Source: Thermodesulfovibrionia bacterium (GTDB taxonomy: Bacteria > Nitrospirota > Thermodesulfovibrionia > UBA6902). Taken from it: DNA of 64,000 bases. Position numbers and translations under genes: made by a program. The stretch spans positions 1-64,000 of the forward strand of contig JAGVNU010000085.1 of NCBI GenBank assembly GCA_020053105.1, read 5' to 3'. Positions within the stretch are counted from its first letter, which is position 1; every line of letters begins with the position of its first letter. Shown piece by piece: positions 1,062 through 21,027 of the stretch. A model generated the notes under the pieces. It was not told the origin of the DNA, searched no databases, and was given only the letters and a program-made list of their open reading frames with translations.

Positions 1062-2028
1062 GATAACCGGCACCGGCTCTTATGTCCCGGATAAGGTCCT
1101 TGATAATTTCGCCCTCGAAAAGAAAGTTGACACGTCGGATGAATGGATCACTGAGCGGACGGGCATTAAGGCAAGAAGGACCGTCTCTGCCGGCCAGACC
1201 AATTCCGACATGTGCCTGGAGGCCTCAAAGAGGGCGCTCCAGTCTGCGGGTCTTAAACCCAAAGATATTGACCTTATAATTGTCGCAACCATGAGCGGTG
1301 ATATGCCCATGCCCTCGACCGCGGCCATTCTGCAAAGCAAGCTGGGGGCGAAAAATGCCGCTGCCTTTGACATTAACGCTGCATGCAGCGGTTTTTTATA
1401 CGGCCTTTCAGTGGCTGACAAGTTTATCAGGACCGGGGCTTCGCAGAAACTGCTTCTCATCGGGTCGGAGGTCAATTCACGTTTTCTTGACTGGAAAGAC
1501 CGGGCCACGTGTGTGCTGTTTGGTGACGGAGCGGGCGCTGTGGTGCTTGAGCCGTCAAGGGGGAAAAGGGGCATATTGTCCACCCATCTTCATACTGACG
1601 GCAACATGTGGGATTTTATCTGTCTGCCGGGGGGCGGATCGCAATATCCACCTACGTCAAAGACGATAAAGGACCGGCTGCATTTTATAAAGATGAAGGG
1701 CAATGAGACCTTCAAGATTGCAGTGAGGACGCTTGAAAAAATTGCTCTCAGCACACTGGAGCATAACAACGTAAAGCCTTCTGAACTTGCAATGCTCATC
1801 CCCCATCAGGCGAACCTGAGAATAATAGCCGCGACTGCCAGCAGACTGAACATTCCCATGGACAGGGTGGCGGTCAATCTTGATAAATACGGGAACACGT
1901 CAAGCGCGTCAATTCCGATCGCCCTTGATGAAGTGGTAAGAGCGGGAAGAATCAAAGACGGTGATTATGTTCTTCTTGAGGCATTCGGCAGCGGACTGAC
2001 ATGGGCCTCGGCTTTGATTAAATGGTAA
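1054..2028 (+). CDS. fabH: 3-oxoacyl-ACP synthase III (KAS III)
   Basis: FabH starts fatty-acid synthesis by condensing acetyl-CoA with malonyl-ACP. The catalytic triad is visible: Cys111 in AACSGFLYG, His251 in IPHQANLR and Asn281 in YGNTSSAS. The glycine-rich C-terminal FGSGLTWAS is also typical. I chose the ATG at 1054 (324 aa, MSRITGTGSYVP), which overlaps the end of plsX by 8 nt. The open frame runs further upstream to 1009, but that extension would only read through plsX and is not FabH-like. Confidence 0.97.
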   Translation: MSRITGTGSYVPDKVLDNFALEKKVDTSDEWITERTGIKARRTVSAGQTNSDMCLEASKRALQSAGLKPKDIDLIIVATMSGDMPMPSTAAILQSKLGAKNAAAFDINAACSGFLYGLSVADKFIRTGASQKLLLIGSEVNSRFLDWKDRATCVLFGDGAGAVVLEPSRGKRGILSTHLHTDGNMWDFICLPGGGSQYPPTSKTIKDRLHFIKMKGNETFKIAVRTLEKIALSTLEHNNVKPSELAMLIPHQANLRIIAATASRLNIPMDRVAVNLDKYGNTSSASIPIALDEVVRAGRIKDGDYVLLEAFGSGLTWASALIKW

Positions 2029-2084
2029 TGACCCCTGGATCCTTTGCAGTAAATTTTTTATTTCCTAATCTCTTTGGAGGGTAA

Positions 2085-3242
2085 ATGGATTATTTTTTTG
2101 ATGAAGAACAGATAATGATAAGAGACCTGGCGCGGCAGATAGCTGACGAAAAGGTAATGCCGATAAGGGCTGAGCTGGATGAGAAGGAAGAATTCCCATG
2201 GGACATTATGAACATTCTGGCGCAGTCGGACTTTCTCGGGATTTATATCCCTGAAGAATACGGAGGCATGGGCAGGGGCGGGTTTGAATTTTGTCTGGCT
2301 GTTGAGGAATTAAGCAGGGCCTGTCTCGGGGTATCAACAACTTATGCTGCAAATGCCCTCGGAACATATCCGATCCTCCTTTACGGTTCAGAGGAACAGA
2401 AAAAGAAATATCTTCCCGACATTGCCTCAGGAAGGAAGCTTGTGGCGTTTGCGCTTACAGAGGCGAATGCCGGCAGCGATGCCGCCGGGGTGCAGACCAC
2501 TGCTCGACTTGAAGGCAATGAATACGTTCTTAACGGCACGAAACAGTGGATAACAAACGGGGGAGAGGCCGGCATCTATACGGTCATTGCGATAACCGAT
2601 AAAAGTAAAGGCGCCAGGGGGGCCTCCGCGTTCATCGTTGAAAAAGATACCCCGGGGTTCACCTTCGGCAAGAAAGAAAATAAAATGGGAATAAGGTCGT
2701 CTTCCACAAGAGAGCTGATATTTGAAAATTGCCGCATCCCGAAAGAAAATGTCATCGGGAAACCGGGGATGGGATTTATCGTCGCGATGAAGACGCTTGA
2801 CAGCTCAAGGACTGGAGTAGGCGCACAGGGAGTTGGGGTAGCGCAGGGGGCATTTGAAGCTGCCGCGGCATATGCCCTGGAGAGGCAGCAGTTTGGCCAG
2901 CCGATAATCAGTATTCAGGCCGTGCAGCATATACTTGCGGACATGGCCACCCAGATAGAAGCTGCAAGGGCGCTGGTATATGCGGTAGCAAAATTCATAG
3001 ACACTAAGGCCAAAGACGTGTCCAAAGAGTCCGCCATGGCAAAGCTGTTTGCCACTGACGTGGCGATGAAGGTGACGGTGGACGCGGTGCAGGTGATGGG
3101 CGGCGCGGGTTATATGAGGGAATATCCGGTTGAAAAGATGATGCGTGACGCGAAGATCCTGCAGATTTATGAGGGCACAAACCAGATACAGAGAAACGTG
3201 ATCGGTCAGGCCTTAGTTAAGGAAACCGCAAAGAAGAAATAG
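2085..3242 (+). CDS. Acyl-CoA dehydrogenase
   Basis: A flavoprotein that introduces the alpha,beta double bond into an acyl-CoA and passes electrons to ETF. The 385 aa show the usual N-terminal helical, middle beta and C-terminal helical domains. The FAD/substrate signature FALTEANAGSDA lies near residue 124, and the catalytic base is Glu363 in IYEGTNQIQRN, the short-chain/butyryl-CoA-type position. A GGAGGG ribosome-binding site precedes the ATG. etfB and etfA follow about 450 bp downstream and are the likely electron acceptor. Chain-length specificity cannot be read from the sequence. Confidence 0.93.
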   Translation: MDYFFDEEQIMIRDLARQIADEKVMPIRAELDEKEEFPWDIMNILAQSDFLGIYIPEEYGGMGRGGFEFCLAVEELSRACLGVSTTYAANALGTYPILLYGSEEQKKKYLPDIASGRKLVAFALTEANAGSDAAGVQTTARLEGNEYVLNGTKQWITNGGEAGIYTVIAITDKSKGARGASAFIVEKDTPGFTFGKKENKMGIRSSSTRELIFENCRIPKENVIGKPGMGFIVAMKTLDSSRTGVGAQGVGVAQGAFEAAAAYALERQQFGQPIISIQAVQHILADMATQIEAARALVYAVAKFIDTKAKDVSKESAMAKLFATDVAMKVTVDAVQVMGGAGYMREYPVEKMMRDAKILQIYEGTNQIQRNVIGQALVKETAKKK

Positions 3243-3255
3243 CGGGTTTAATGTC

Positions 3256-3579
3256 ATGGCCAGAAAGATATTCATATTATTATGTATGGCGGCTTTTATC
3301 GGGTTTACAGGCTGCATTACATTCCTTTCAAAAAGCGGCTCCCTTGTCCGGTTTGAAGAAAAGAGCGGGGCGCTCACGGATTGTAAATACATGGGCGCTG
3401 TCAGGGGGACTTCTCCGGCAGGATTGATCAATGATCTGAAAAAAGAGAACGCGTTAAACGAAATCAGAAACAACGCTGCGCTCTTGGGGGCCAATACGGT
3501 TGTGATAACCAGCAAGGATTCCATGTTTGATGAAACGGTTGTCCATGGCAAGGCCTACCATTGTCCGTTAAATGAATAA
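3256..3579 (+). CDS. Small lipoprotein, DUF4156-like
   Basis: A 107-aa secreted lipoprotein. It has a basic N-terminus, a hydrophobic signal segment (residues 5-18) and a lipobox FTGC with the acylated Cys at residue 20. The mature part has the pattern of DUF4156 lipoproteins: C-x-Y-MG at the start, then a helix ending in N-x-A-A-x-LGANTVV. Function is unknown for the family. It lies 13 bp after the acyl-CoA dehydrogenase and could be co-transcribed, though nothing suggests a shared role. Confidence 0.7.
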   Translation: MARKIFILLCMAAFIGFTGCITFLSKSGSLVRFEEKSGALTDCKYMGAVRGTSPAGLINDLKKENALNEIRNNAALLGANTVVITSKDSMFDETVVHGKAYHCPLNE

Positions 3580-5890: not shown

Positions 5891-6052
5891 ATGACAAAGA
5901 AAAAACCATTTGTGGAGCCTGTACTGTTTAAGCACAAAGAGAAACTGGACGAAATAACAAAGTTTAATGGCTTCGGATCTCAAGGCACTGATACAAGTAC
6001 AAGCCGCAGGATTAGCAGGAAAAACGGAAGGTGTCCCCTTGGTTTTAAATAG
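5891..6052 (+). CDS. Candidate RiPP precursor peptide 1
   Basis: A 53-aa ORF read directly from the sequence. The N-terminal 24 residues look like a leader for a PqqD-type recognition element: Lys-Lys-Pro-Phe-x-x-Pro-x-Leu, then KEKLDEIT ending at Thr23, close to the lasso-leader pattern YxxPxL...LxxxT. The next part is Gly/Ser/Thr-rich (GFGSQGTDTSTS, residues 27-38), then Arg/Lys-rich with one Cys (C48). A GGGGAGG lies 14 nt before the ATG. Over residues 1-30 it matches the second peptide (6633) at 17 positions without a gap, including Gly29-Ser30, then diverges. A conserved leader with a variable core, next to PqqD/B2-type genes, argues for a precursor; the product type is unknown. Confidence 0.65.
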   Translation: MTKKKPFVEPVLFKHKEKLDEITKFNGFGSQGTDTSTSRRISRKNGRCPLGFK

Positions 6053-6133
6053 ATTTTAAAAGCAAATGAATGGTGTGCCGGAATCCTCTACTCAATCCAG
6101 CCTTACTGTCTCCCTGCTCAGACAATAAATAAT

Positions 6134-6162
6134 TTGACATGCTTCAGATTTTATGATAACTT
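6134..6162 (+). promoter_or_regulatory. Putative sigma-70 promoter before the PqqD-like gene
   Basis: A perfect TTGACA (6134-6139) is followed after 17 bp by TAACTT (6157-6162). It lies in the 204-bp gap between precursor 1 and the PqqD-like gene, about 95 bp before the GTG start. The -10 is weak (4 of 6), but the -35 and spacing are ideal. It would let the maturation genes be transcribed separately from precursor 1. Confidence 0.4.
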
Positions 6163-6256
6163 TTCTTTACACCTCTAGCGCAATGTACTAATCAGTCCAA
6201 ACGCATTTGTTCATATAATGGAGGGGAGAAGCTTAGATGAGGAGTTTTGAAAGTAA

Positions 6257-6553
6257 GTGAATATTATTAATGATCAATTGAAAACCTGGCGAAAGAATCC
6301 GTCGGTGGTGTGCACTGAACTGGATGAAGGAGCAGTGCTTTTAAACCTGGATACCAAGTATTATTTTAATTTGAATGAGACAGGATTAAGAATCTGGCAG
6401 ATCATGGAAGACTCCCTGAACTCCATGGAAATAGCAGAGAAACTGGCCGGCGAGTACGATGTTGATATGGAAAGAGCAAAGTCAAGCGTGGTCAGGCTGC
6501 TGGGAGAATTGGAGAAGGAAGAGTTGATTCTTTCCGCGGGGAATAGACGTTAA
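6257..6553 (+). CDS. PqqD-family peptide recognition protein (RRE)
   Basis: A 98-aa stand-alone PqqD-like domain. The features are typical: WRKNPSVVCTELDEGAVLLNLDTKYYFNLNETG followed by IWQIMEDS and a winged-helix tail (residues 55-95). In RiPP pathways such proteins (PqqD, lasso B1) bind the leader of the precursor and present it to the tailoring enzymes. The start is GTG at 6257, after a GAGGAG about 12 nt upstream; no ATG is in frame nearby. It lies between the two precursor-like ORFs, which supports a leader-binding role. Confidence 0.85.
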   Translation: MNIINDQLKTWRKNPSVVCTELDEGAVLLNLDTKYYFNLNETGLRIWQIMEDSLNSMEIAEKLAGEYDVDMERAKSSVVRLLGELEKEELILSAGNRR

Positions 6554-6562
6554 ATTATTAAT

Positions 6563-6579
6563 TGCTCGAGCGTTTCTTT
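6563..6579 (+). repeat. CTCGAG hairpin-like motif, copy 1
   Basis: TGCTCGAGCGTTTCTTT starts 10 bp after the PqqD-like gene. The core GCTCGAGC is palindromic and followed by a T-rich stretch. A fuller version occurs at 6854-6873, so the two copies bracket precursor 2. It may be a weak terminator or processing hairpin. Confidence 0.35.
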
Positions 6580-6632
6580 ATTGCTCAAAAAATGATACCC
6601 TTATAAAGGGAAGGAAAGAGGAGGTGAAGAGC

Positions 6633-6779
6633 ATGGCAGAAAAGAAACCATTTAAAGAACCTATTCTGATGAAGTACGAAGAGAAGCTTGACCAGGTAAC
6701 CAAGAATACTCAGTTGGGTTCTAATTGCGACATTAAACCGACCCGTACGAAAAGAAGGTCGCGTCGCTTCAGGCATTAA
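6633..6779 (+). CDS. Candidate RiPP precursor peptide 2
   Basis: A 48-aa ORF read directly from the sequence, with a strong AGAGGAGG site ending about 8 nt before the ATG. Its leader parallels precursor 1: KKPFKEPIL, then EEKLDQVT ending at Thr23, followed by Lys24 and Gly29-Ser30. The C-terminal 18 residues are different and extremely basic (nine Arg or Lys), with one Cys at residue 32. It lies 79 bp after the PqqD-like gene and 76 bp before the kinase-like gene. Strong ribosome binding, leader conservation and position suggest a highly translated substrate of the adjacent enzymes. It is not an obvious lasso core, having no Asp/Glu seven to nine residues after a Gly/Ala/Ser/Cys leader junction. 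Confidence 0.65.
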   Translation: MAEKKPFKEPILMKYEEKLDQVTKNTQLGSNCDIKPTRTKRRSRRFRH

Positions 6780-6853
6780 CTCTAAGGCATATGATACATC
6801 ACCCCTTTGGTGCAGAGCTGAGTAGATTGGTCGGGGTAAAAAGTGAGCTTAAG

Positions 6854-6873
6854 AAATGCTCGAGCATTTTTTT
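6854..6873 (+). terminator. Perfect 16-bp palindrome with T-run (possible attenuating terminator)
   Basis: AAATGCTCGAGCATTT (6854-6869) is a perfect palindrome followed directly by four more Ts, the layout of a short intrinsic terminator. The stem (AAATGC/GCATTT, TCGA loop) is weak, so partial read-through is likely. It overlaps the first in-frame ATG (6856) of the kinase-like gene. It could keep precursor 2 transcript levels above those of the enzymes. It may equally be an operator. Confidence 0.4.
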
Positions 6874-7893
6874 ACTACACCTGATTATGTATTTGCCTGC
6901 GGGGGGAGTGTATCAGTGATTAACAGTACACACACAATTCAGGGAGTGAGTATACGGCTTCGCTGTGATCATCGGCTGCATTTACGCATATCATATTATT
7001 TTAATTTCTATTATAAAGGGGAGACCCGCCGGTTAGTAAAACCAGTTCTCTATGAACTGTCCAGAGTAAAAAATCCCCCGACAATACCGGCAGACGCAGT
7101 CAGAGCGTTTAAGGCCCCGGATGTATCATGTTACATAAGCGGCAAAAGTATTTACTATACGTCGGAAGACGGCTCTGTTATGCACCTGGACCCTGTCTCA
7201 AGAAAAGTAAAGGGTTATCTCAGGGAGAAGGTCCTGGACAATACGAGAATACTATACTCTCTGGTAGGCGCGCCTTTTTCAGAAATTCTGAAATATAACT
7301 CACTGTATTCCCTTCACTCATCTGCTCTCTATCGCAACGGGGTGGGATACCTGTTTTCAGGAGACAGCGGAAGCGGAAAAACCACTACGGCGCTGGGTCT
7401 GGTTGCTCATGGCTTCAAATATGCCTCTGACGATGTTGTACTGCTTGAGGAAGTAAAAGGAGAAATAATTGCACATTCATTGACCAGTACGTTTAACGTA
7501 GACAGGATGCTGGGCGAACGCTTCCCCGGAATTGTAAAAGAGGAAAATCTTCCAGTTAAAGAGGGCGCCAAGGTAACTGTCAGCATAGAACGTATTGTCC
7601 CCGATTCTTTTATCCCTCACCTTAGACCGGACGTGATGGTATTTTTGAAGATTAATTCAGGCGGGAAAAGCCGCATTAATCCCCTTAGCCAGTTTGAAGT
7701 GTTCAACAGATTGCTTAAACAGACTTTACTGGCAGCAGATAAAGAAGTTTCACAAAATCAGATACAGACCATTGGAAAGCTGGTCAGGCAGGTCCGCGGA
7801 TTTGAGCTTCTGAGAGGAAAAGACATCTATGAAGACCCCGCATGTCTTGTCAGTCTTATGGCTGAAGCAGGTTGTCATTATGCGGACCATTAA
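6856..7893 (+). CDS. HPr-kinase-like ATPase of the RiPP-like cluster
   Basis: A 345-aa protein with an HPr kinase/phosphorylase-type catalytic fold. LHSSAL (about residue 153) precedes a Walker A GDSGSGKTT (169-177), and SDDVVLL follows at 191. The N-terminal 130 residues are a beta-rich region not found in true HprK. Homologues in lasso clusters phosphorylate a Ser of the precursor, so a precursor peptide is the likely substrate here. The start is uncertain: the ATG at 6856 lies within a palindrome and has a poor ribosome-binding site; GTG codons near 6910 are alternatives. It overlaps the B2-like gene by 14 nt. Confidence 0.8.
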   Translation: MLEHFFTTPDYVFACGGSVSVINSTHTIQGVSIRLRCDHRLHLRISYYFNFYYKGETRRLVKPVLYELSRVKNPPTIPADAVRAFKAPDVSCYISGKSIYYTSEDGSVMHLDPVSRKVKGYLREKVLDNTRILYSLVGAPFSEILKYNSLYSLHSSALYRNGVGYLFSGDSGSGKTTTALGLVAHGFKYASDDVVLLEEVKGEIIAHSLTSTFNVDRMLGERFPGIVKEENLPVKEGAKVTVSIERIVPDSFIPHLRPDVMVFLKINSGGKSRINPLSQFEVFNRLLKQTLLAADKEVSQNQIQTIGKLVRQVRGFELLRGKDIYEDPACLVSLMAEAGCHYADH

Positions 7894-8404
7894 GAAAATA
7901 CGGTCAAACTTTGATTCCCTGGAAGAAGTCGGGCTTTTTCTTCAAATATTTCTGCTCATAACAATTCTGCCTCTTTTAGTAAAACTTATGACAGTCCCCC
8001 AATTAATGAAAATACTTACGCCGCAGAAATCAAAATCAAACGGGAAATGGGACATTGATGAGATCAGAGATAAAATTGAAAAATACACTCTTTATATATT
8101 GAGCAGAGACTTTTGGATATACAAAAACATATGCCTTAAACGTTCACTGGTCCTTTACCATTTTTTAAGGAAATACGGGATGTATGTAACCGTATGTTTT
8201 GGTGTGCGATATAAAAATGAACGGTCCGGGAATGTAGAGGTAAAGAAAATGGAAGGCCATGCGTGGCTCACCTGCAACGGCGATATTTTCATGGAAAAAA
8301 ATGCGGAAGAGACTAAAACCTACAGAATGACCTATTGTTATCCGAAAAATGAAGATGATACGAAAGAAAAGGGTCTCATGCCCGATATAGAGGGATTGAT
8401 GTGA
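7880..8404 (+). CDS. Lasso-B2-like transglutaminase-fold leader peptidase
   Basis: A 174-aa protein of the lasso peptide biosynthesis B2 family, cysteine proteases that remove the leader from a precursor delivered by the PqqD-like B1 protein. The triad is visible: Cys85 in NICLKRSLVLYHFLRKYG, His127 in EGHAWL and Asp135 in CNGD. Residues 15-37 are hydrophobic, suggesting membrane association. I chose the ATG at 7880; an upstream in-frame start at 7829 would lie wholly within the kinase gene. The stop overlaps the GTG start of the nucleotidyltransferase gene. Confidence 0.85.
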   Translation: MRTIKKIRSNFDSLEEVGLFLQIFLLITILPLLVKLMTVPQLMKILTPQKSKSNGKWDIDEIRDKIEKYTLYILSRDFWIYKNICLKRSLVLYHFLRKYGMYVTVCFGVRYKNERSGNVEVKKMEGHAWLTCNGDIFMEKNAEETKTYRMTYCYPKNEDDTKEKGLMPDIEGLM

Positions 8405-9576
8405 ATCTGTCGAATGAAAACGCTCTGTTAATATTATGTGCCCGGCAAGGAAGTTACAGGGACAACCCGGAAAAGATCAATTCTCTTCTCGCTCTTCAGA
8501 TTAAGTGGGATGAACTTTTAAGCGCTGCTGTTTCTCAAGGTATTGCTCCTTTGGTTTATAAGAATCTGAAAGACATTCCGGAGAAGACTTCTGTTCCTGA
8601 CGAGGTGATAGGTAAGCTCAGAATAGTTTACCAGGGCAATGTTGCGAGGAATATGTATCTTTACTCTGAATTAGAGCGCATTTTACAGGCGTTTCATGAA
8701 GAAAAGATAGACGTAATAACGCTGAAAGGCGCGGCATTGGCAGGGACGGTGTACGGGGACATAGGTTTGAGGATCATGAGTGACATTGACCTTCTCGTCA
8801 GGCCGGAGTGTTTAGCGCGGGCAAAGGAGGTAATGTCTGATCTGGCCTATTTTGCAGGGGGGACCAAGACGGAGGGATGGTACAAAGAGAAACATTTTCA
8901 TCTTCCGCCTTTCATACATAAGGAAAAACAAATAATAGTAGAAATTCACTGGAACGTCGCCGGGGATTCGCTAGGCATTAATGTCGACAGATGGTGGGGA
9001 AGAGCGAGAAAAACAAGATTGGGCGAGGGGTGGGTACTCATCCCATCACCTGAAGATATGATACTTCATCTTTGCATCAGCCTTTATCATGGTAATTATA
9101 ACAAAGCGGCCTTAAGAGGACTTTGTGATATATTTTATACCATACGTTACTTTTCAGAAGAGACGGACTGGAAACTGTTTAGGGAGCTGATTGAACAAAG
9201 CAAAATTGCCAGGCCTGTTTATTCCATATTGTTTCTGGTCAGAAAATATTTTGACAGCAGTAATCAGGCTCTTTCCTGGCTTGACCATGTACATACAGAT
9301 ATTAAATTTACTGCCATGGCGGAGAAGATAATTTTCATTCCGGAGAATGAGTATTATTCCCTATTTATGAAGTCATTGGCTGCTGATACAAAGTGGGAAA
9401 AAACGAAAATCATTTTTGCTGATATTTTCCCTTCTCAGGAGAAGATGTCGAAACGATATTCAATACGGGCTGATTCCGCCAAAGTGTATATTTATTATGC
9501 CTATCGTCCCATTGAACTGACCGTAAAATACGGGAGGTCTTTGTTAAAGATGTTTTGCTTCAGAAATTCAACATAG
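8401..9576 (+). CDS. Nucleotidyltransferase-family protein (NTP_transf_5 type)
   Basis: A 391-aa protein with a minimal nucleotidyltransferase core: LKGAALAGTVYGD then MSDIDLLV, where Asp128 and Asp130 form the metal-binding DxD pair. This family is common in lasso clusters carrying a kinase (paeninodin type), where it may modify the phosphorylated peptide; its substrate is not established. The start is GTG at 8401 in a GTGA overlap with the B2-like gene, indicating coupling. The C-terminal half (residues 190-390) is helical with no motif I recognise. Confidence 0.8.
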   Translation: MNLSNENALLILCARQGSYRDNPEKINSLLALQIKWDELLSAAVSQGIAPLVYKNLKDIPEKTSVPDEVIGKLRIVYQGNVARNMYLYSELERILQAFHEEKIDVITLKGAALAGTVYGDIGLRIMSDIDLLVRPECLARAKEVMSDLAYFAGGTKTEGWYKEKHFHLPPFIHKEKQIIVEIHWNVAGDSLGINVDRWWGRARKTRLGEGWVLIPSPEDMILHLCISLYHGNYNKAALRGLCDIFYTIRYFSEETDWKLFRELIEQSKIARPVYSILFLVRKYFDSSNQALSWLDHVHTDIKFTAMAEKIIFIPENEYYSLFMKSLAADTKWEKTKIIFADIFPSQEKMSKRYSIRADSAKVYIYYAYRPIELTVKYGRSLLKMFCFRNST

Positions 9577-9586
9577 GGAGCTGCGG

Positions 9587-10591
9587 TTGTCATACGTTAT
9601 TGAGACAGTCAATCTATCAAAAAAGTATCCTGTACTTAAAGGATACCGGGACATTTTATTCCATCCATTCAGAAAGAAAGAGACCCCGGCCCTCAATAAT
9701 GTAACCATTCAGATAAATGAGGGAGATATATTCGGTCTGCTCGGTCCTAATGGCGCCGGCAAGACCACACTGATAAAAATTCTGTGTACCCTCGTTCTGC
9801 CCAGCGCAGGGAGCGCGTATGTGAAAGGGTATGACGTCACAAGGGATGAGAAGAGCATAAGAAAGCTGATAGGTTATGTGATAAGCGAGGAGAGGAGTTT
9901 TTACTGGAGGCTGTCAGGCAGGCAGAATCTGAAATTCTTTGCAAAGCTGAACAATATCCTGAACAGGGAGGCAGACCAACGGATTGAGAGACTGCTGGAA
10001 TTTCTGGACCTTGCTGCTGATGCCGGCAGAATGTTTAAAGATTATTCAACTGGCATGCGCCAAAAACTGGCGATAGCGAGGGGGCTTCTTACCGATCCGG
10101 CTATATTATTTATGGATGAACCGACAAACGGCCTGGACCCGGTCTCTGCCCATAATTTGAAACTGCTGGTAAAAGAAAAGCTGGTGGGAGAGAAAAAGAA
10201 AACAGTAATCTTCGCGACCCATAACCTGAGGGATGCAGAGGAGCTGTGTAACCACATTGCGATAATCCAGAACGGGGAGGTCAGGATCGAGGGGACATTA
10301 GAAGATATCAGATCTAAATTTAATGAATCGAAAAGATATGTGATGAAATTAAGAAATGTTGAAGGAGAGGTATTAGTAAAGATTCATAATAAGGCTTTGG
10401 TGAAAAGTATGATGTCTGTATCAAATGGATCATCAGGTTTTACAGAAATTGAATTCGAAATCGGACATAACAATGGCAGCCTGCAAGGGTTTGTTAAGGA
10501 AATCGTCGATATGGGCGGTGAATTGTTTTCTGTTTATGAGATTGAGCCTACTCTTGAAGATCTATTTTCAGAGATAGTGAAAGCGAAATGA
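9587..10591 (+). CDS. ABC transporter ATP-binding protein
   Basis: A 334-aa ABC-2-type ATPase. Walker A is GPNGAGKTT (about residues 54-62), the signature loop is YSTGMRQKLA and Walker B is ILFMDEPTNGLDP. A C-terminal extension of about 90 residues is typical of DrrA/NatA-like exporters. The start is TTG at 9587 with AGGGAG just upstream; no ATG fits the conserved N-terminus. It overlaps the permease gene by 4 nt. In context it probably exports the peptide product or gives self-immunity. Confidence 0.92.
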   Translation: MSYVIETVNLSKKYPVLKGYRDILFHPFRKKETPALNNVTIQINEGDIFGLLGPNGAGKTTLIKILCTLVLPSAGSAYVKGYDVTRDEKSIRKLIGYVISEERSFYWRLSGRQNLKFFAKLNNILNREADQRIERLLEFLDLAADAGRMFKDYSTGMRQKLAIARGLLTDPAILFMDEPTNGLDPVSAHNLKLLVKEKLVGEKKKTVIFATHNLRDAEELCNHIAIIQNGEVRIEGTLEDIRSKFNESKRYVMKLRNVEGEVLVKIHNKALVKSMMSVSNGSSGFTEIEFEIGHNNGSLQGFVKEIVDMGGELFSVYEIEPTLEDLFSEIVKAK

Positions 10592-11412
10592 GACCTGTAT
10601 CACTTATATTTGAAAAACCGCTCGCTTTTTTATGGAGAGACATTATAGAAGATACCAGCTATAAGCTGTCATTTTTCATGCAGTTCGTCAGTATCTTTGT
10701 TTCAACCTCTATGTTTTACTTTTTCTCAAGGCTCCTGGGCGATGCAGGGATTTCCTATCTTAAGCCATACGGAGGGAATTACTTCTCTTTTGTTCTTATC
10801 GGCATCGCGTTTTACAGCTATCTCAGTGTATCCATACAGAGCCTCTCGGAAACTATTCGTGAGGGACAAATGCTGGGGACACTGGAAGCGCTGCTCGTAA
10901 CTCAGACGGAGATCCCGACTATCATTATATCTTCATCCCTGTATAGTTTTATCTGGGCGTCTTTTAAGGTGGCAGTGTACCTGTTATTGGGAGGTTATGT
11001 GTTTGGAGTCAATCTCGGCAATGCCAATCTTATCGGGGCAACTATTGTTCTCATGCTCACTATCATTTCCTTTGGCAGTCTGGGAATAATTTCAGCGAGT
11101 TTTGTCATGGTCCTGAAGAGAGGTGACCCTGTTAACTGGATATTTTCAAGTGTTTCTGGATTAATAGGCGGTTTGTACTACCCGGTTTCAGTGCTTCCCG
11201 ACTGGCTGCAAAAACTGTCTTATCTCCTGCCTGTCACCTATGCACTGGAAGGTATGAGAATGGCAGTGCTGAAAGGGTATTCTGTCAGTGAACTGCTCCC
11301 CAATATTTTGGCATTAACGCTTTTCTCAATTATTATGCTGCCGCTGAGCATCCTGGTTTTTAAATACGCTGTTAGGAAAGCAAAAAGAGACGGGACACTG
11401 ACGCAGTATTAA
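10588..11412 (+). CDS. ABC-2 type transporter permease
   Basis: A 274-aa membrane protein with about six hydrophobic spans and the ABC-2 permease pattern, including GLYYPVSVLPDWLQKLSYLLP near the C-terminus (the loop before the last spans). It starts in an ATGA overlap with the ATPase gene and completes a one-ATPase, one-permease exporter. It is the last gene of the RiPP-like operon; a 189-bp gap separates it from cas3. Confidence 0.9.
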   Translation: MRPVSLIFEKPLAFLWRDIIEDTSYKLSFFMQFVSIFVSTSMFYFFSRLLGDAGISYLKPYGGNYFSFVLIGIAFYSYLSVSIQSLSETIREGQMLGTLEALLVTQTEIPTIIISSSLYSFIWASFKVAVYLLLGGYVFGVNLGNANLIGATIVLMLTIISFGSLGIISASFVMVLKRGDPVNWIFSSVSGLIGGLYYPVSVLPDWLQKLSYLLPVTYALEGMRMAVLKGYSVSELLPNILALTLFSIIMLPLSILVFKYAVRKAKRDGTLTQY

Positions 11413-11542
11413 TCTTTGATGACGTCCGATCAACGGCTGCCAGCCATATTTTCTTAAATCGAATACATACCTGAACACCGTCATCCCGAGCCCCGATATG
11501 TTGGAATTCAGGATGATATTTATAAGTTGCCTGATTTCCGGA

Positions 11543-11571
11543 TTGCAGTTTTTTATCTCCTGATATAGAAT
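11543..11571 (+). promoter_or_regulatory. cas3: Putative sigma-70 promoter of the cas operon
   Basis: TTGCAG (11543-11548), a 17-bp spacer and TAGAAT (11566-11571) lie about 30 bp before the cas3 start. Both hexamers deviate from consensus by one or two bases. The position in the only sizeable gap upstream of the cas genes supports it. Confidence 0.4.
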
Positions 11572-11601
11572 TCAACATGCGTTAAAAAAGGGGATATCAG
11601 G

Positions 11602-14370
11602 TTGCAATCATTTTACAGCTACTGGGGGAAGGCGGAGAAAGATGGTGCGGGGTATCATCTTTTGCCGTATCATTGTCTGGATGTGGCGGGGGTGGGACAT
11701 GTGATGCTTTCACAGCGCAATGACTTACGAAAACGCTTTGCTGCAATCTCCGGGCTTGATGAGACGGTTTGCTGTCAATGGATAGCGCTTTTTCTTGGAC
11801 TACACGATATCGGCAAATTCTCAGAGAACTTTCAGAATCTGCGGCCTGACCTGCTGGAGAAACTGCAAGGGAAGAAATCCGGCAAGGCTTATTCCGTACG
11901 TCATGACAGTCTTGGAAATCTGCTATGGATCGAATCTCTTTGGCGGTCATTTGAAGCCTCAGCCTCTGCCAGTGTGCCTGATTTTAGGAATGTCGCTGAA
12001 TACTGGCAGGAACTCTTTCAATATATTGCAAATGCATTTACCGGTCATCATGGACAACCCCCAAGGAGAACAGGTCCCAACGATCTTCAGTTAAGACTCT
12101 CAACATTCTTCACAACTGAGGAAATAAACTACGCATCACAATATATGCATGATCTTCAAGTTGTTCTAAACAAAGAGGTTGGAATTATTCTTCAATTGCC
12201 CTCACCAATAAATATCTATGATTCTAATTCTATGCCGATTGCTTCCTGGCTCATGGCCGGATTTGCTGTGCTTTGTGACTGGATCGGATCAAACAGTCAA
12301 TGGTTCCAATTTTGTGAAAGCGTTATGCCGCTTGACGAATATTGGCGCAACCACGCCATTCCTCAAGCGACATGTGCTATACGCGAAGCGGGCATTAATG
12401 CCGCAAGTCCAAAAGCAACTGATAGTCTATTTGCAGATGTATTTCCCGATATTAGTGAACCTACGCCATTACAAAGACATGTAATCGAATGTCCGATTGT
12501 TGATTCTCCGCAGCTATTCATCCTTGAAGATGTTACAGGTTCCGGCAAGACTGAGGCGGCATTATTTCTGGCTAAACGTCTTATGACGCATGGCCTTGGG
12601 AATGGTATATTTATGGCCCTACCAACAATGGCGACTTCAAATGCGATGTACGATCGTGTTACTAAAGTGTACCGCAAACTTTTCACTGACGAGTCTACTC
12701 CTTCTCTTGTGTTGGCTCATGGAGCGAGACACCTTTCGGATACCTTTATGCGCTCTATTGCAGATCCCTCGAATACACAGAAACAGTATGGAACCGACGA
12801 GGACACAGCTTCTGCTCAGTGCGCTTCTTGGCTGTCTGATAATCGAAAGAAGGCGCTGCTTGCTGATGCAGGAGTCGGAACACTCGATCAGGCTCTTTTG
12901 GCAATCCTGCCTTCCCGCTTTCAGTCATTACGTCTTTTGGGTTTGGCCGGTCATATTCTTATTGTCGATGAGGTACATGCATACGACCCGTATATGAACA
13001 AGCTTCTTCAAACCCTCCTATCTTTTCATGCGGCGATGGGTGGAAGCGCAATTCTTCTCTCAGCGACATTGCCGAATCATGTGCGTCAAGAATTTATTTC
13101 CAGCTTTAACGGAGGGATGGACATGTTTGAATCTATTCGTGTTGAGTCTGCTGCTTATCCGCTGGCAACTCATTTGTCGCGTAATGAGAGTATTGCAGAA
13201 GTCCCTGTAGACGCAACCCCGCAACGAATAACGAGCGTAGACGTGAAAATTATAACTGACTCTGAAGATGCAGAACGAATGGTCATCTCGGCTGCCGGGC
13301 AAGGGAAATGCGTCTGTTGGATTCGGAACACCGTGCATGACGCGATAGCCGGATTTGAAAGTCTTCGGGAAAAGGTAGCTTCAGACAATCTCATGATTTT
13401 TCATGCCCGCTTTGCAATGGGTGATCGGTTAGATATAGAAACCATGGTTAAAGACTGCTTCGGGAGAAAAAGCAAAGAAAAGGACCGGAGCGGAAAAATA
13501 CTGATAGCTACACAAGTTGTCGAACAATCCCTTGATCTTGATTTTGACCTGCTTATCTCAGACCTGGCGCCAATGGACTTGCTGATCCAGCGTGCCGGGA
13601 GGCTCCATCGACATACGAGAGACGAACAGGGTAATCCATTGCCATATGGCTCTGGAAATGATCGACGTGAGCTTCCTTGTTTCATCATTCACGGCCCATT
13701 GCCGGAAGACGATGCAGATGCGAACTGGTATAAAACGATGTTTCCCAAAGCTGCAACTGTATATCCAAGCCACGGTTGCCTGTGGCTTACTGCGCGCCTC
13801 CTGAAAGAAAAGGGTGTACTGCGTATGCCTGATGATGCTCGGGAACTTATTGAGGCGGCCTTTGGTAAAGCGGCTGCAAGTATACCTTCTGCCCTTCAGA
13901 AGAGGGATGACGAGGCGTTCGCGAAAAGAAGTCAAGATAGATCGCTTGCCCATATCAATATGCTGAAACTCGAAGAAGGCTATGTGGCAACACCTAATCA
14001 ATGGCTTGAGGATATGCGGACACCTACGAGGCTTGGCGATACGGAAAGCACGGTGCGTCTTGCCCGATGGGACGGCAGGGCACTGACCCCGTGGTATCCC
14101 CATTCAGACTTTCCGTGGGATATGAGCCAGGTATATCTTCGCAGCTTTTTTGTTCATAGCGAAGCCAACCATACTGATCCTGAGCTTCGGGCAGCAGTAG
14201 AGAAACTGAAAGAGATATTACCCGACAAAGGGAAATGGAGTGTCCTCGTTCCACTATCAAAGAGTGATGACGGGGTTTGGCGTGGAGAGGCCCAAAACAA
14301 GAAAGGTGACGCCGTTACTATTACTTATGATCCGTTAATCGGCGTCACCGTCGGCAAAGAGGAGGCATAA
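11602..14370 (+). CDS. cas3: CRISPR-associated nuclease-helicase Cas3 (type I-E)
   Basis: Cas3 is recruited by Cascade after R-loop formation and degrades target DNA. The 922 aa hold an N-terminal HD nuclease (His24 region; His68-Asp69 in LGLHDIGKF; GHHG near residue 152) and an SF2 helicase. Helicase motifs are TGSGKT (312-317), DEVH (456-459), LSATLP, and QRAGRLHRH from 663. All key motifs are intact. The start is TTG at 11602 behind AAAAAGGGG. It directly abuts cse1 at 14371, so the effector genes form one operon. Confidence 0.96.
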   Translation: MQSFYSYWGKAEKDGAGYHLLPYHCLDVAGVGHVMLSQRNDLRKRFAAISGLDETVCCQWIALFLGLHDIGKFSENFQNLRPDLLEKLQGKKSGKAYSVRHDSLGNLLWIESLWRSFEASASASVPDFRNVAEYWQELFQYIANAFTGHHGQPPRRTGPNDLQLRLSTFFTTEEINYASQYMHDLQVVLNKEVGIILQLPSPINIYDSNSMPIASWLMAGFAVLCDWIGSNSQWFQFCESVMPLDEYWRNHAIPQATCAIREAGINAASPKATDSLFADVFPDISEPTPLQRHVIECPIVDSPQLFILEDVTGSGKTEAALFLAKRLMTHGLGNGIFMALPTMATSNAMYDRVTKVYRKLFTDESTPSLVLAHGARHLSDTFMRSIADPSNTQKQYGTDEDTASAQCASWLSDNRKKALLADAGVGTLDQALLAILPSRFQSLRLLGLAGHILIVDEVHAYDPYMNKLLQTLLSFHAAMGGSAILLSATLPNHVRQEFISSFNGGMDMFESIRVESAAYPLATHLSRNESIAEVPVDATPQRITSVDVKIITDSEDAERMVISAAGQGKCVCWIRNTVHDAIAGFESLREKVASDNLMIFHARFAMGDRLDIETMVKDCFGRKSKEKDRSGKILIATQVVEQSLDLDFDLLISDLAPMDLLIQRAGRLHRHTRDEQGNPLPYGSGNDRRELPCFIIHGPLPEDDADANWYKTMFPKAATVYPSHGCLWLTARLLKEKGVLRMPDDARELIEAAFGKAAASIPSALQKRDDEAFAKRSQDRSLAHINMLKLEEGYVATPNQWLEDMRTPTRLGDTESTVRLARWDGRALTPWYPHSDFPWDMSQVYLRSFFVHSEANHTDPELRAAVEKLKEILPDKGKWSVLVPLSKSDDGVWRGEAQNKKGDAVTITYDPLIGVTVGKEEA

Positions 14371-16038
14371 ATGCAGTTCAACTTGATTGATGAAGAATGG
14401 ATTCCGGTTAAACGGCGAGATGGCACAGAAACAAGAATCACACCGTGGCAAGTCACCGACGGGTTTGCAGAAAACCCTATTGTATCACTCAATGCGCCGC
14501 GTCCTGACTTTAACGGCGCGCTTATTCAATTTCTGATAGGGTTGGTTCAGACAACCTTTGCGCCTGCAAACAGGATTGAATGGAAGCATAAGTTGAGAAC
14601 ACCGCCATCTACAGATCAACTGAAAACGGCATTCATGACGGTTCATAATGCCTTTGAACTTGGAGGAGATGGGCCGAGGTTTATGCAGGACCACGAGGAT
14701 TTCAAGCAGACGTCTAAGCCGATTGATTGGCTTCTCATCGGCGCAGCTACAAAGAACACGATAGCTGAAAACATAGACCATTTCATCAAACGATCCATGG
14801 TCTCTAATATGTGTCCATCATGCTGTACAATGGCATTACTGACAATGCAAACAAATGCGCCCGGCGGCGGTCAGGGATATCGCACATCTCTCAGGGGCGG
14901 TGGTCCGTTAACAACGCTTATCATTGGGGACAAGAATTTCGACACCCTGTGGCATACAATGTGGTTGAATGTTCTGGAATCAAAAATATTCCTGACTTTC
15001 TGCAACTCGAAACGGAGTTCAGATTCAAATAAGTTCCCATGGTTAGCGAAAACTAAAACCAGCGTTACGGAGCAGGATATTCATCCTGCACAATACTTTT
15101 GGGCTATGCCTAGACGCATTAGACTGGGCCTGGAGAAATCCGAAAGCGGGCTTTGTGATGTTTGTGCACTACCGAGCAATTCGCTGATTACAGCATGCAA
15201 AGAAGTAAATAAAGGGACAGAGTATAGATCACCCATGAAGCATCCGTTATCACCATTTGATACAAGGATAAAGAAAAATCAGAAAGAAGAGGCAGCGCGA
15301 AATAAAGCCTTGTTGACGCAATCAGGGGGGGTAAGCTATAGGCACTGGCTGGGAATTGTTGTCAACGATACGGATGGACGCATTGAGCCGGCAAGAATTG
15401 TTCATGAGTTTATCGAGCGGCAGCAAAGCGACTGGCAATTCCGCCTCTGGGCATTTGGGTATGACTTTGTCCCTGGTCAAAGTAAAGCCCGGTGCTGGTA
15501 CGATTCAAAGATTCCACTCATAACGGTAGAGCATGAACATATATCTGATTATGAAAATAAAATCGCAACTCTGATCAAAGCGGCAAATATAATATGTGGC
15601 AACCTAAAGATTGCAATAAAAAAAGTATTACATGGGATACCGGAATATGACGCAATAACCAGACAAATAAAATGGAAATATCAAGATATCAAGAGGCTTG
15701 ATGCTGATGATGAAATGGCGCGAGAAAGAGTTCTGACTTCCGTTAGAACTATATCGGCGTTCACGGCTATTGAAGCGAGTTTCTGGCAGACGACGGAAGC
15801 GTTTTTTTATTCAGTTTTACTCAACTTGAGTCATTGCATTAGAGATAATAAGGGTGGCTCGGAATTCTTCGAGCAGTGGCAGCATGCACTTTGTACAGAA
15901 GCTTTAAAACAATTCGATTCCTATATTCTGAGTGCACCGATTGAGGATATGAAAATTAAACATGTGGCGCTCGCTCAAAAGGAGCTTAATAATTTCAATA
16001 GAGGAACAAGGGTCCGAAAGATACTTGGGCTGTCATGA
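14371..16038 (+). CDS. cse1: Cascade large subunit Cse1/Cas8e (CasA)
   Basis: Cse1 recognises the PAM and recruits Cas3. The N-terminus FNLIDEEWIPV followed by NAPRPDFNGALIQFLIGLVQ is typical of type I-E CasA. The protein is 555 aa, somewhat longer than the E. coli protein (502). Two CxxC pairs (C148/C151 and C262/C265) could form a zinc site. A C-terminal four-helix bundle is expected from about residue 390. It starts immediately after the cas3 stop. Confidence 0.94.
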   Translation: MQFNLIDEEWIPVKRRDGTETRITPWQVTDGFAENPIVSLNAPRPDFNGALIQFLIGLVQTTFAPANRIEWKHKLRTPPSTDQLKTAFMTVHNAFELGGDGPRFMQDHEDFKQTSKPIDWLLIGAATKNTIAENIDHFIKRSMVSNMCPSCCTMALLTMQTNAPGGGQGYRTSLRGGGPLTTLIIGDKNFDTLWHTMWLNVLESKIFLTFCNSKRSSDSNKFPWLAKTKTSVTEQDIHPAQYFWAMPRRIRLGLEKSESGLCDVCALPSNSLITACKEVNKGTEYRSPMKHPLSPFDTRIKKNQKEEAARNKALLTQSGGVSYRHWLGIVVNDTDGRIEPARIVHEFIERQQSDWQFRLWAFGYDFVPGQSKARCWYDSKIPLITVEHEHISDYENKIATLIKAANIICGNLKIAIKKVLHGIPEYDAITRQIKWKYQDIKRLDADDEMARERVLTSVRTISAFTAIEASFWQTTEAFFYSVLLNLSHCIRDNKGGSEFFEQWQHALCTEALKQFDSYILSAPIEDMKIKHVALAQKELNNFNRGTRVRKILGLS

Positions 16039-16060
16039 ATACAAAGATTTTGGAGGTCTT

Positions 16061-16564
16061 ATGGGCAATGAATATTTGAGTTTCAAGAAGGATTCAACGG
16101 AAGTTCAGAAGTTAATTGACTGGTGGGATGACCTGGAAAAGAACTATCGCGGTGAAAGGGCCGTTCTGCGACGATGCAGCACTCTCAATGAGGTGGTTTT
16201 ATCTCCAGCATATCATCGTCTGCGAATGGCGTTGCTTAATATCGGCAGGGTCTACGATAATCAGCTATCACTGGTAGTCGGTTTAACTGTACGTGTTAAA
16301 ACTAATGCAGATGAATCCGGGATTGCCGGGCAAATGGCAACCGGCAAGACAGACGGCTCAGCCAGAGTAAGCGGGCTTCGTTTCCGAAGGCTGCTCAAGG
16401 TGAAGGAACGTGACGAACTTTTTACTGCTATGAGTCGGATTATCGCACTCCTCGGCAGAGCGGTAAACATCCAAAGCTTAGCTCAGAGCGTCTATTTCTG
16501 GAACGATAGAACACGAAAAGACTGGGCGTTTGAATATTACTCAAAAGCCCCTGATGAAAAATAA
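16061..16564 (+). CDS. cse2: Cascade small subunit Cse2 (CasB)
   Basis: A 167-aa all-helical protein; two copies in Cascade stabilise the R-loop. WWDDLEKNYRGERAVLRRC near the N-terminus and the later RFRRLLKVKERDELFTAMSR are Cse2-like. I chose the ATG at 16061, with TGGAGGT 5 nt upstream; the frame is open back into cse1, but that extension has no Cse2 character. Confidence 0.92.
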   Translation: MGNEYLSFKKDSTEVQKLIDWWDDLEKNYRGERAVLRRCSTLNEVVLSPAYHRLRMALLNIGRVYDNQLSLVVGLTVRVKTNADESGIAGQMATGKTDGSARVSGLRFRRLLKVKERDELFTAMSRIIALLGRAVNIQSLAQSVYFWNDRTRKDWAFEYYSKAPDEK

Positions 16565-16600
16565 ATCAAACAACTTAAATTTGAAAGGAGACTCAAAGCA

Positions 16601-17668
16601 ATGAGCACATTTATTCAACTGCATTTACTTACATCCTATCCGCCGTCTAATCTTAACCGGGATGACCTCGGTCGTCCCAAGACTGCTGTTGTCGGAGGTA
16701 GAACTCGTCTCCGTATTTCATCCCAAAGTCTAAAGCGGGCATGGCGGACTTCAGAGTTGTTTAAGGCTGCTGTTGGTGATCATATGGGTAAGAACACTAA
16801 GAGAATGGGGTTTAACGCAGCTAAGGATTTTGAAAAGGCCGGGGTAGCTCCGAAAGACGCTATCGCTTGGGGCAAAAAGATAGCGGATGAGTTTGCAGAG
16901 ACTGAAGGCAAAGACAAAAGTGATCCCTATAAAGAGACGCTTCTGAAGCAACCGATTCATTTGTCGCATATTGAATACAAAAAGCTGCAGGAGCTTGTTG
17001 CCCGGCTGTGTAAAGAAAAGAGAGCACCCAATGATGATGAGTTAGAGTTCCTGAGTAAAGAACATAATTCCGTTGACATTGCAATGTTTGGGAGGATGCT
17101 TGCCGTAAAAGGGAAGATGGACTTGGGCATGGAGGGTGCCGTGCAAGTTGCCCATGCATTCACTGTTCATGAGGTAGCGGTAGAGGACGATTATTTTACC
17201 GCTGTAGATGATTTAAATGAGGGACCCGACGCCGCCCACATCGGAGAGACCGAGTTCGCTTCTGGTGTTTTTTACCTTTATGTCTGCATCAATCGTGATT
17301 TACTGGTAGAAAATCTGAAAAAGAAAGACCCTGAAAAAGCAGAGGCTCTCGCCAATAAGACACTCGAAGCCCTTGTAGAGGCAGCGACAAAGATTGCGCC
17401 GACCGGCAAACAAAACAGCTTTGGCTCCCGTGCCCGTACCTCATACATGTTGGTGGAAAAAGGAAGCGATCAGCCTCGCGCTCTTGCTGTAGCATTTCTA
17501 AAGCCTGTGAAAGGAGAAGACATTCTTAGCACGGCTATTAGCGAACTGGAAAAACGTCGTGACAACTTCGACAAGGTCTACGGGCACTGTTACGATGAGT
17601 TCAAGGCATTGAACGCCGAGACAGGCGTAGGCAGCTTAATCGATATCATTAACTTCGTAAAGGAGTGA
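16601..17668 (+). CDS. cas7: Cascade backbone Cas7e (CasC)
   Basis: Six copies of this RRM-fold protein coat the crRNA spacer. The opening FIQLHLLTSYPPSNLNRDDLG and SQSLKRAWRTSELF are diagnostic of type I-E Cas7 (Cse4/CasC). At 355 aa it has the usual length. It has a GAAAGGAG ribosome-binding site and lies 36 bp after cse2, the largest gap between Cascade genes, which would suit separate strong translation of the most abundant subunit. Confidence 0.95.
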   Translation: MSTFIQLHLLTSYPPSNLNRDDLGRPKTAVVGGRTRLRISSQSLKRAWRTSELFKAAVGDHMGKNTKRMGFNAAKDFEKAGVAPKDAIAWGKKIADEFAETEGKDKSDPYKETLLKQPIHLSHIEYKKLQELVARLCKEKRAPNDDELEFLSKEHNSVDIAMFGRMLAVKGKMDLGMEGAVQVAHAFTVHEVAVEDDYFTAVDDLNEGPDAAHIGETEFASGVFYLYVCINRDLLVENLKKKDPEKAEALANKTLEALVEAATKIAPTGKQNSFGSRARTSYMLVEKGSDQPRALAVAFLKPVKGEDILSTAISELEKRRDNFDKVYGHCYDEFKALNAETGVGSLIDIINFVKE

Positions 17669-17672
17669 AGCC

Positions 17673-18410
17673 ATGCGCGACTATCTTATTTTTAAACTCT
17701 ATGGCCCACTAGCATCGTGGGGTGATATCGCCGTAGGTGAATACCGGCCCAGCTTCGCCCATCCCAGCAAGTCAGCCATAATCGGTTTGCTTGCTGCTGC
17801 CCTAGGCATTCGGCGCGACGAGGATGAACGGCAAAAAGAACTGACCGATGCGTGTTCTTTTGCTGTGCGTGTGGATGCTATGGGTACACTGTTGCGGGAC
17901 TATCATACTGCACAGGTGCCGTCTGAAAAGAAAGGGGTTACCCGTTATACACGTTATTCAGAACTGGCAAATGAAAATTTGAACACAATCCTCTCCACCA
18001 GAGATTACCGCTGTGATGCCGCCTACACTGTGGCAATCACCGTTCGTGATGGAGCAAAGTATACCGCACAGGCGCTGGCTGATAAACTGAAGAAGCCGGA
18101 ATTTTCTCTATATCTTGGCCGTAAGTCTTGTCCATTGGCATTCCCACTTCAGCCAAAGGTTATCCCCAGTGCGGCAACTCTTAAAGAAGCGCTTGCGAGT
18201 GTGTCATTTAACAATGAAGAACTGCCCGACGTCATCACCAATTCTCCATACTTAATTTATTGGGATGACAACATAGAAAGCGGCTTTGAGCAAGAACACG
18301 TCATTACTCGTCGTGATACGCCGCTATCGCGTATCCGTTGGCAGTTTAATGAGCGGCGTGAGCATTATTGCTCTGTAAAAAAGGAGGACAAAACATGTTC
18401 TTCAGTATGA
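17673..18410 (+). CDS. cas5: Cascade subunit Cas5e (CasD)
   Basis: Cas5e caps the 5' handle of the crRNA. The N-terminus YLIFKLYGPLASWGDIAVGEYRP is typical, as is the HPSKSAIIGLLAAALGIRR stretch, where the family glycine/lysine region sits. It has 245 aa, starts 4 nt after cas7 and overlaps cas6e by 16 nt. Confidence 0.94.
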   Translation: MRDYLIFKLYGPLASWGDIAVGEYRPSFAHPSKSAIIGLLAAALGIRRDEDERQKELTDACSFAVRVDAMGTLLRDYHTAQVPSEKKGVTRYTRYSELANENLNTILSTRDYRCDAAYTVAITVRDGAKYTAQALADKLKKPEFSLYLGRKSCPLAFPLQPKVIPSAATLKEALASVSFNNEELPDVITNSPYLIYWDDNIESGFEQEHVITRRDTPLSRIRWQFNERREHYCSVKKEDKTCSSV

Positions 18411-19159
18411 TTCGACTGCGGAAGAATGTTTCACCAAGAGATATTGCATCTCTTGGTGGTGGGGAGGAATACCGATTACACAAATTGATATGGGATCTTT
18501 TCAGTGATGGACCCAATCGCAAGCGGGATTTTCTTTACCGCAACGAAATAATAAACGGCTTACCCACATTCTATACCATTTCAGAACGTGAGCCGAACTG
18601 TGTCGGTAATTTATGGGATGTCCTAGTAAAAAAATACGCGCCAAGACTTGTACAAGGAGAACGCCTGTCCTTCAAGCTCAGGGCAAATCCTGTTCAACCG
18701 GCAAAGAAAGAAAGAACCGACTCTGAAATTAAAGAATGGCTTAGAAGTCGTGAAGCGCGAGGGCTTAAAGAAAAAGAACCCACGAAAAAAAGGATTCGTC
18801 ATGATGTGGTGATGGAGGAAAAGAGCAGGATCGGCTTCAAGGAATTAACACATGACCAGCGGCCTCATACAGCGGAGCTTATTCAGAAAGCTGGTTTAAC
18901 GTGGCTAAAAGCGAAAGAAAAAGAATTCGGATTTTTTGTGGAAGATGAAGAGAACAAGACTGCTGTAAGAGTGGATGGCTACATACAGCACAGATTGTTC
19001 AGAGGCAGGGGACAAAAGCCGATGACATTCAACACTCTTGATTTCAACGGCATTCTTACTGTTACTGAACCTGAGACGTTCGTCAATAAATGTCTCTTCA
19101 ACGGCATCGGCCCCGCCAAAGCCTTCGGCTGCGGCCTCATGCTGGTGAGGCGGGTATGA
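18395..19159 (+). CDS. cas6e: crRNA-processing endoribonuclease Cas6e (CasE)
   Basis: Cas6e cuts the pre-crRNA at the base of each repeat hairpin and stays on the 3' handle. The catalytic His is likely His29 in EEYRLHKLIWDLF, and the glycine-rich loop is GIGPAKAFGCGLML at the C-terminus. I chose the ATG at 18395 (254 aa), behind AAGGAGG inside the end of cas5. It is longer than E. coli Cas6e (199 aa), with a charged insert around residues 110-150. Its stop overlaps a 37-codon ORF (ATGA). Confidence 0.93.
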   Translation: MFFSMIRLRKNVSPRDIASLGGGEEYRLHKLIWDLFSDGPNRKRDFLYRNEIINGLPTFYTISEREPNCVGNLWDVLVKKYAPRLVQGERLSFKLRANPVQPAKKERTDSEIKEWLRSREARGLKEKEPTKKRIRHDVVMEEKSRIGFKELTHDQRPHTAELIQKAGLTWLKAKEKEFGFFVEDEENKTAVRVDGYIQHRLFRGRGQKPMTFNTLDFNGILTVTEPETFVNKCLFNGIGPAKAFGCGLMLVRRV

Positions 19160-19269
19160 AAGTGTTGAGGTCGAATTATCAACATGCTGATGCTGATTTT
19201 GATCATACAAATTTATTGGAGCAGTTGAAAAAAGACTTTCATGTAGCTACAATTGGAGTTATAATATAA
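19156..19269 (+). CDS. Unrecognised 37-aa ORF between cas6e and brnT
   Basis: The ATG at 19156 overlaps the cas6e stop (ATGA), and its TAA is directly followed by the brnT ATG at 19270, so the ORF exactly fills the space between two genes. The peptide is acidic/His-rich at first, then HTNLLEQLKKDFHVATIGVII, an amphipathic helix plus a hydrophobic strand, and looks protein-like. I do not recognise it. It may be a real small protein coupled to cas6e, or the remnant of a gene lost when the toxin-antitoxin pair arrived. Confidence 0.4.
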   Translation: MKVLRSNYQHADADFDHTNLLEQLKKDFHVATIGVII

Positions 19270-19783: not shown

Positions 19784-19814
19784 AACATACAATTAACAGG
19801 TTTAGGATTAGACC

Positions 19815-21027
<1,213 letters not shown>

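Follow-up and report, generated by a model that had tools for sequence, protein, structure and literature searches.

Twin peptides with a shared leader in Thermodesulfovibrionia as likely precursors of a lasso-derived RiPP pathway lacking a cyclase

Near the start of the contig stretch analysed here, a Thermodesulfovibrionia sequence of 64,000 nucleotides (the window), two short ORFs begin almost alike and end quite differently, which raises the question of what kind of product they encode and which of the neighbouring genes would process it. The answer that we favour, and hold to be fairly probable, is that both are precursors of a RiPP from a lasso-derived, cyclase-free pathway giving linear decorated peptides. 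Its basis in the sequence is an FxxPxL leader, a discrete RRE, a B2 protease, an HprK-like kinase, an NTP_transf_5 protein and an ABC-2 exporter, together with the lack of an Asn-synthase-type cyclase. The ORFs and the repeats around the second of them are as follows.

5891..6052, plus strand: precursor peptide 1, 53 aa, with the Shine-Dalgarno sequence GGGGAGG upstream
5891-5962, plus strand: predicted leader of precursor 1, residues 1-24
5963-6049, plus strand: predicted core of precursor 1, FNGFGSQGTDTSTSRRISRKNGRCPLGFK
6633..6779, plus strand: precursor peptide 2, 48 aa, with an AGGAGG Shine-Dalgarno sequence
6633-6704, plus strand: predicted leader of precursor 2
6705-6776, plus strand: predicted core of precursor 2, NTQLGSNCDIKPTRTKRRSRRFRH
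6560..6578, no strand: left arm of a 19-nt inverted repeat around precursor 2
6851..6872, no strand: right arm of this repeat, a palindrome followed by a T-run

The lengths and coordinates of the ORFs and their 17 identities over 30 ungapped residues, all given in a preliminary description of the locus, proved exact on recheck, as did the single Cys of each peptide (C48 in precursor 1, C32 in precursor 2). In 20,000 shuffles of precursor 2, the best 30-residue ungapped window reached 12 identities and 17 never occurred; the homology of the two peptides is beyond chance. Furthermore, a search of the own genome with precursor 1 returned only itself and precursor 2, the latter with an E value of 7e-7. 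That the ORFs would be too short for standard gene calling, as was also stated, is doubtful, since common gene callers take ORFs of 30 aa and up and a Shine-Dalgarno sequence precedes each of the two. The palindrome and T-run at 6851..6872 could possibly act as an attenuator or terminator between precursor 2 and the enzyme genes; a terminator scan did not report the palindrome. The inverted repeat was also considered as the border of a mobile cassette around precursor 2, a reading countered by its absence from the sister loci examined, and a phage or defence function was dropped because PHROGs held no match for the precursors and PADLOC gave generic ATPase matches only, to the exporter.

Queries with the RRE and with a joint profile of the two peptides located the cluster, precursors included, in five more members of the family (G001, G002, G011, G032 and G034), that is, in six Nitrospirota genomes in total; the public records describe Nitrospirota MAGs, one of them from groundwater. 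Bacterium HR37 and G234, both of another phylum, carry RRE, precursor, kinase, B2, transferase, ATPase and permease in the same order. All assemblies are MAGs, and the contigs of G002 and G034 end inside the cluster. The leader profile matched six genomes out of 230 of the class and two out of 57 in HR37's phylum, and retrieved no new genome from a 395-genome sample of the Nitrospirota phylum, so that the cyclase-free cluster is rare and patchy.

All 12 precursors contain F-x-x-P-x-L, and in every one a Thr stands exactly 16 residues past the Phe. The leaders of the lasso peptide Bsf and of the linear polyphosphorylated peptides (LPP) of Bacillota read YxxPx[L/V], with a conserved Ile or Thr 15 residues past the Tyr (PMC10368454, PMC13381572), and from this comparison Thr23 is most simply taken as the penultimate leader residue. 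By analogy, cleavage probably takes place after residue 24, with Thr23 at -2, and the shared leader proper would comprise about 24 residues; Thr23 is invariant across all precursors, its penultimate position depending on the inferred cleavage site. Cleavage there would make Gly29-Ser30 the fifth and sixth residues of the core, and thus the earlier assignment of this pair to the leader is probably wrong. The 12 cores span 8 to 32 residues, are mostly basic and have little overall similarity. Precursor 1 of four genomes nevertheless has a conserved FN-x-[LF]GS close to the beginning of the core and a terminal [RK]CPLG[FY][KR], only the core middle being variable, and the G011 precursor ends in KCPLFG. 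The cores are thus not variable over their whole length, contrary to the complete divergence described past the leader. The pattern of constant leader and variable core, from which RiPP precursors had been proposed, is what the relatives display, and it supports the assignment of both ORFs to RiPP precursors of the leader/core type, next to an RRE predicted to bind the leader.

This pattern can also be followed at the level of codons. Compared with G002, a sister species, the window has 11 synonymous and 0 non-synonymous changes in the 24 codons of the precursor-1 leader, as against 3.5 synonymous and 13.5 non-synonymous changes in the core middle (codons 35-46), while codons 47-53 are conserved again; the comparison with G001 gave a similar picture. 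For precursor 1, pN amounts to 0.00-0.07 in the leader versus 0.33-0.50 in the core middle, the counts being small and the synonymous sites partly saturated, so that they yield no precise ratio. Purifying selection, as read from these substitutions, acts on the precursor-1 leader, and this synonymous-biased change, despite the small counts, indirectly indicates, as do the ribosome-binding sites, translation of precursor 1 into a peptide that is under constraint. The comparison of leader and core that had been suggested as a check thus comes out clearly for precursor 1 and weakly for precursor 2, where a single pair displays a mild contrast (leader pN 0.17, core pN 0.26).

The putative leader binder is encoded between the two precursors, in the reading frame of precursor 1.

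6257..6553, plus strand: discrete RRE of the PqqD / lasso B1 type, predicted leader binder (PF05402, 2.9e-16)

The RRE matched the lasso_PqqD models at about 5e-16, under the model cut-offs, and TbiB1 at 2.5e-13 in a PDB profile search; its profile scored 53 bits with the lasso protein TbiB1 versus 21 bits with LppB. Foldseek superimposed it on TbiB1, whose structure was solved with the leader (TbiB1/TbiA complex, PDB 5v1u, 5v1v), with a TM score of 0.85, that is, with a like fold. A joint structure prediction of leader and PqqD-like protein was run as a single chain, for which the stops in the translation of 5891-6550 were replaced by Gly and the alignment was composed of fragments of relatives. 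The leader was confidently placed, residues 1-20 having a pLDDT of 89-95 and residues 12-14 forming a strand; the RRE exceeded 90, and core and linker mostly remained below 50.

According to published contacts, Asn33 of LppB fixes the Pro kink of the leader and Asp70 hydrogen-bonds the hydroxyl of the leader Tyr. In our alignment, Asn33 corresponds to Asn40 of the window RRE and Asp70 to Ser77, a Ser in every sister RRE, whereas this column holds Asp in TbiB1 and TfuB1 too. All leaders of the cyclase-free group have Phe, which lacks a hydroxyl to bond, where known leaders use Tyr or Trp; the window locus thereby departs from the TbiB1/TbiA complex both in the RRE residue at the motif contact and in the leader residue. 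Likewise, an FxxP precursor is paired with a Ser RRE at a second locus of the own genome (L020), and YxxP is paired with Asp in a typical lasso cluster of the class (L098); the exception is a radical-SAM cluster (L022), in which YxxP is paired with Gly. The pairing of leader Phe with RRE Ser is a correlation across related sequences, and it would add Phe/Ser to the Tyr/Asp and Trp/Gln pairs by which RRE specificity may be compared at one contact.

Two of these loci deserve a brief description. L020 (contig C93 of the own genome, 19000-37592) holds at 7063-12252 a second, different cluster with no cyclase nearby; its candidate precursor has two FxxP motifs and a core of about GFFGGFSPSA, and its genes encode an HprK-like kinase, a GNAT-like protein, a radical SAM protein, an RRE, B2 and NTP_transf_5. 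L022 (contig C40 of G001) carries at 8761-14284 two near-identical YxxP precursors ending in MMPHGxVPNPSGCGCGGGS, with two radical-SAM-like genes, an HprK-like protein, an S24-type peptidase, two PqqD-like proteins and a methyltransferase as neighbours, and resembles a SynChlorMet-like RiPP locus.

Past precursor 2, five genes follow on the strand of the precursors, mostly overlapping or abutting.

6916..7893, plus strand: HprK-like kinase (ORF open from 6856, GTG start at 6916 preferred; PF07475, 1.4e-8)
7880..8404, plus strand: B2 leader peptidase, a transglutaminase-fold cysteine protease (ORF open from 7829; PF13471, 1.3e-12)
8401..9576, plus strand: NTP_transf_5 nucleotidyltransferase-like tailoring enzyme (PF14907, 9e-58)
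9587..10591, plus strand: ABC exporter ATPase, DrrA-like (PF00005, 2.5e-30; TIGR01188, 1.4e-75, under cut-off)
10588..11412, plus strand: ABC-2 exporter permease (PF01061, 5e-15)

The kinase matched the HprK structure 1ko7 at 1.8e-8, its similarity to HprK being local (~55 residues). Its AF2 model was of poor quality (mean pLDDT 67.5) and gave no significant match in a fold search, and a plasmid search returned only distant, partial kinase matches. A His-Lys-Asp-Asp set reported as essential in lasso kinases (PMC9266682) is invariant in eight homologues. B2 reached 52 bits with NF033537 (lasso_biosyn_B2; cut-off 33), and one Cys and one His are invariant across 11 B2 proteins. An electron-transfer flavoprotein operon upstream looks unconnected, and in G001, G002 and G032 the cluster also follows etfA. 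Directly past the exporter, type I-E CRISPR-Cas genes and an array (window 11602-21900) look unconnected as well. A SynChlorMet cassette was considered and rejected, the cluster having no radical SAM gene and the ScmC/ScmD models scoring far under their cut-offs.

With an RRE of the B1 type and a B2 protease, the cluster has two parts of a lasso pathway, and taken with the kinase, the NTP transferase and leaders that resemble those of lasso peptides, Thr at -2 included, they could suggest that the ORFs are true lasso precursors, their cyclase being encoded elsewhere in the genome and acting in trans. In line with this, the own genome encodes a single full Asn synthase, located away from the cluster contig (on C48), and precursor 2 has an Asp/Glu at core position 9. 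Nevertheless, a PF00733 search of eight genomes gave no match on any cluster contig, and in G011, which is 99% complete, the matches were fragmentary only, with no intact cyclase. Ten of the 12 cores either have no Asp/Glu at positions 7-9 or have one without a usable first residue; Gly1 is absent from most of them, and in precursor 1 and most others, positions 7-9 offer no acceptor and the first residue is Phe, Trp, Asn or Arg. Moreover, the HR37 core, at 8 residues, is too short to thread. Among the control B2 loci of the class, L098, which has a lasso-like precursor, and L100 keep a full Asn synthase adjoining B2, and L099, on a short contig, lacks one. We consider a cyclase in trans very unlikely, and by the tests run the window cluster is not a lasso peptide system, as it presents neither cyclase nor ring residues. 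The phosphorylated lasso peptides (paeninodin, pseudomycoidin from psm, and Bsf; PMC9266682, PMC10368454) do share with it B1, B2, an HprK-like kinase, which in them has a Ser of the precursor as substrate (Bsf: Ser3), and a conserved leader residue, penultimate in them and putatively so in the window peptides; psm also encodes PsmN, which resembles nucleotidyltransferases (PMC9266682). But they have a C-protein cyclase, Gly1 or a similar residue and an Asp/Glu acceptor, none of which occurs in the window cluster. L099 itself carries, at 1654-3431, genes for an HprK-like protein, an RRE and B2 with neither cyclase nor obvious precursor, beside thiamine biosynthesis genes.

A closer counterpart is the lpp cluster of Paenibacillus alginolyticus, published in 2026 (PMC13381572), which likewise unites a discrete RRE, an HprK-like kinase, an NTP transferase and an exporter without a cyclase, and encodes one to three precursors with a constant leader and a variable core (PMC13381572). 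Could the window precursors then simply belong to the LPP family? We regard this as unlikely, if somewhat less so than a lasso cyclase in trans. LPP clusters, described from Bacillota only, have a SpI/SipW-like signal peptidase, an MsbA-like pump and YxxP leaders of the form YxxPxVLxHQxIxFET (PMC13381572), whereas the window system has B2 and no such peptidase, an ABC-2 exporter, FxxPxL leaders and an RRE scoring far higher with TbiB1 than with LppB, and occurs in Nitrospirota and one other phylum. Because peptidase, exporter, leader motif and phylum all differ, the window system is not LPP by the published definition; as far as its gene content tells, it works like LPP with parts of lasso lineage, and LPP is its closest known system. 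A literature search for cyclase-free clusters of this type, in which coverage of subscription journals was mostly lacking, returned the LPP paper only (PMC13381572). These comparisons suggest that at least two lineages, which differ in their proteases, can use the lasso toolkit and leave the ring unclosed, so that in genome mining the presence of B1 and B2 does not by itself indicate a lasso peptide.

What, then, would the enzymes do to the cores? In pseudomycoidin, a Ser receives a phosphate from the kinase, and the attachment of hexoses to this phosphate requires PsmN, a nucleotidyltransferase-like protein (PMC9266682); in Bsf, the RRE (B1) speeds phosphorylation of Ser3 (PMC10368454); and in LPP, where the cyclase is absent, the kinase puts several phosphates on Ser3 (PMC13381572). 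The six precursors of G000, G001, G002 and G032 all retain Gly-Ser, and a Gly-Ser is present in both G234 cores as well; by analogy Ser30 is a likely candidate phosphosite in both window peptides. Cores without any Ser or Thr occur in G011 and in one G034 precursor, and that of HR37 has Thr only, so that Ser phosphorylation is not a rule of the whole group. Such cores, and the local similarity of the kinase domain, would also fit peptides that are cyclised or otherwise altered through some so far unrecognised function of the HprK-like or the NTP_transf_5 protein, with no phosphorylation at all; in view of the invariant lasso-kinase residues and the retained Gly-Ser, we find this highly improbable.

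Returning to linear phosphate-decorated products, which the gene set probably yields, we hypothesize that the RRE would grip the leader at Phe7, Pro10 and Leu12 and present the precursor to the HprK-like kinase, which would phosphorylate a Ser of the core, Ser30 in either window peptide, perhaps repeatedly. The NTP_transf_5 protein could then add a sugar or a nucleotide onto the Ser phosphate, B2 would cut past residue 24 with Thr23 at -2, and the exporter would release the two products as linear cationic peptides, 29 and 24 residues long. Whether the cluster stands for a cyclase-free branch of lasso machinery outside Bacillota, independent of LPP, with its own leader code (Phe/RRE Ser) and linear peptides decorated by kinase and transferase, is a wider proposition that we judge evenly balanced. 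If it holds, cores devoid of Ser and Thr would need a kinase acceptor not yet seen for such enzymes.

Two further observations concern the distant relatives. Bacterium HR37 has a fusion of an RRE with a capsule domain, PGA_cap of the CapA type (L051, 184-1773); a GMC oxidoreductase and the precursor cluster lie downstream of it, and the tail of a further precursor copy reaches the contig end. G234 encodes an orphan precursor of 57 aa (L066, 9868-10038) on a contig other than that of its cluster.
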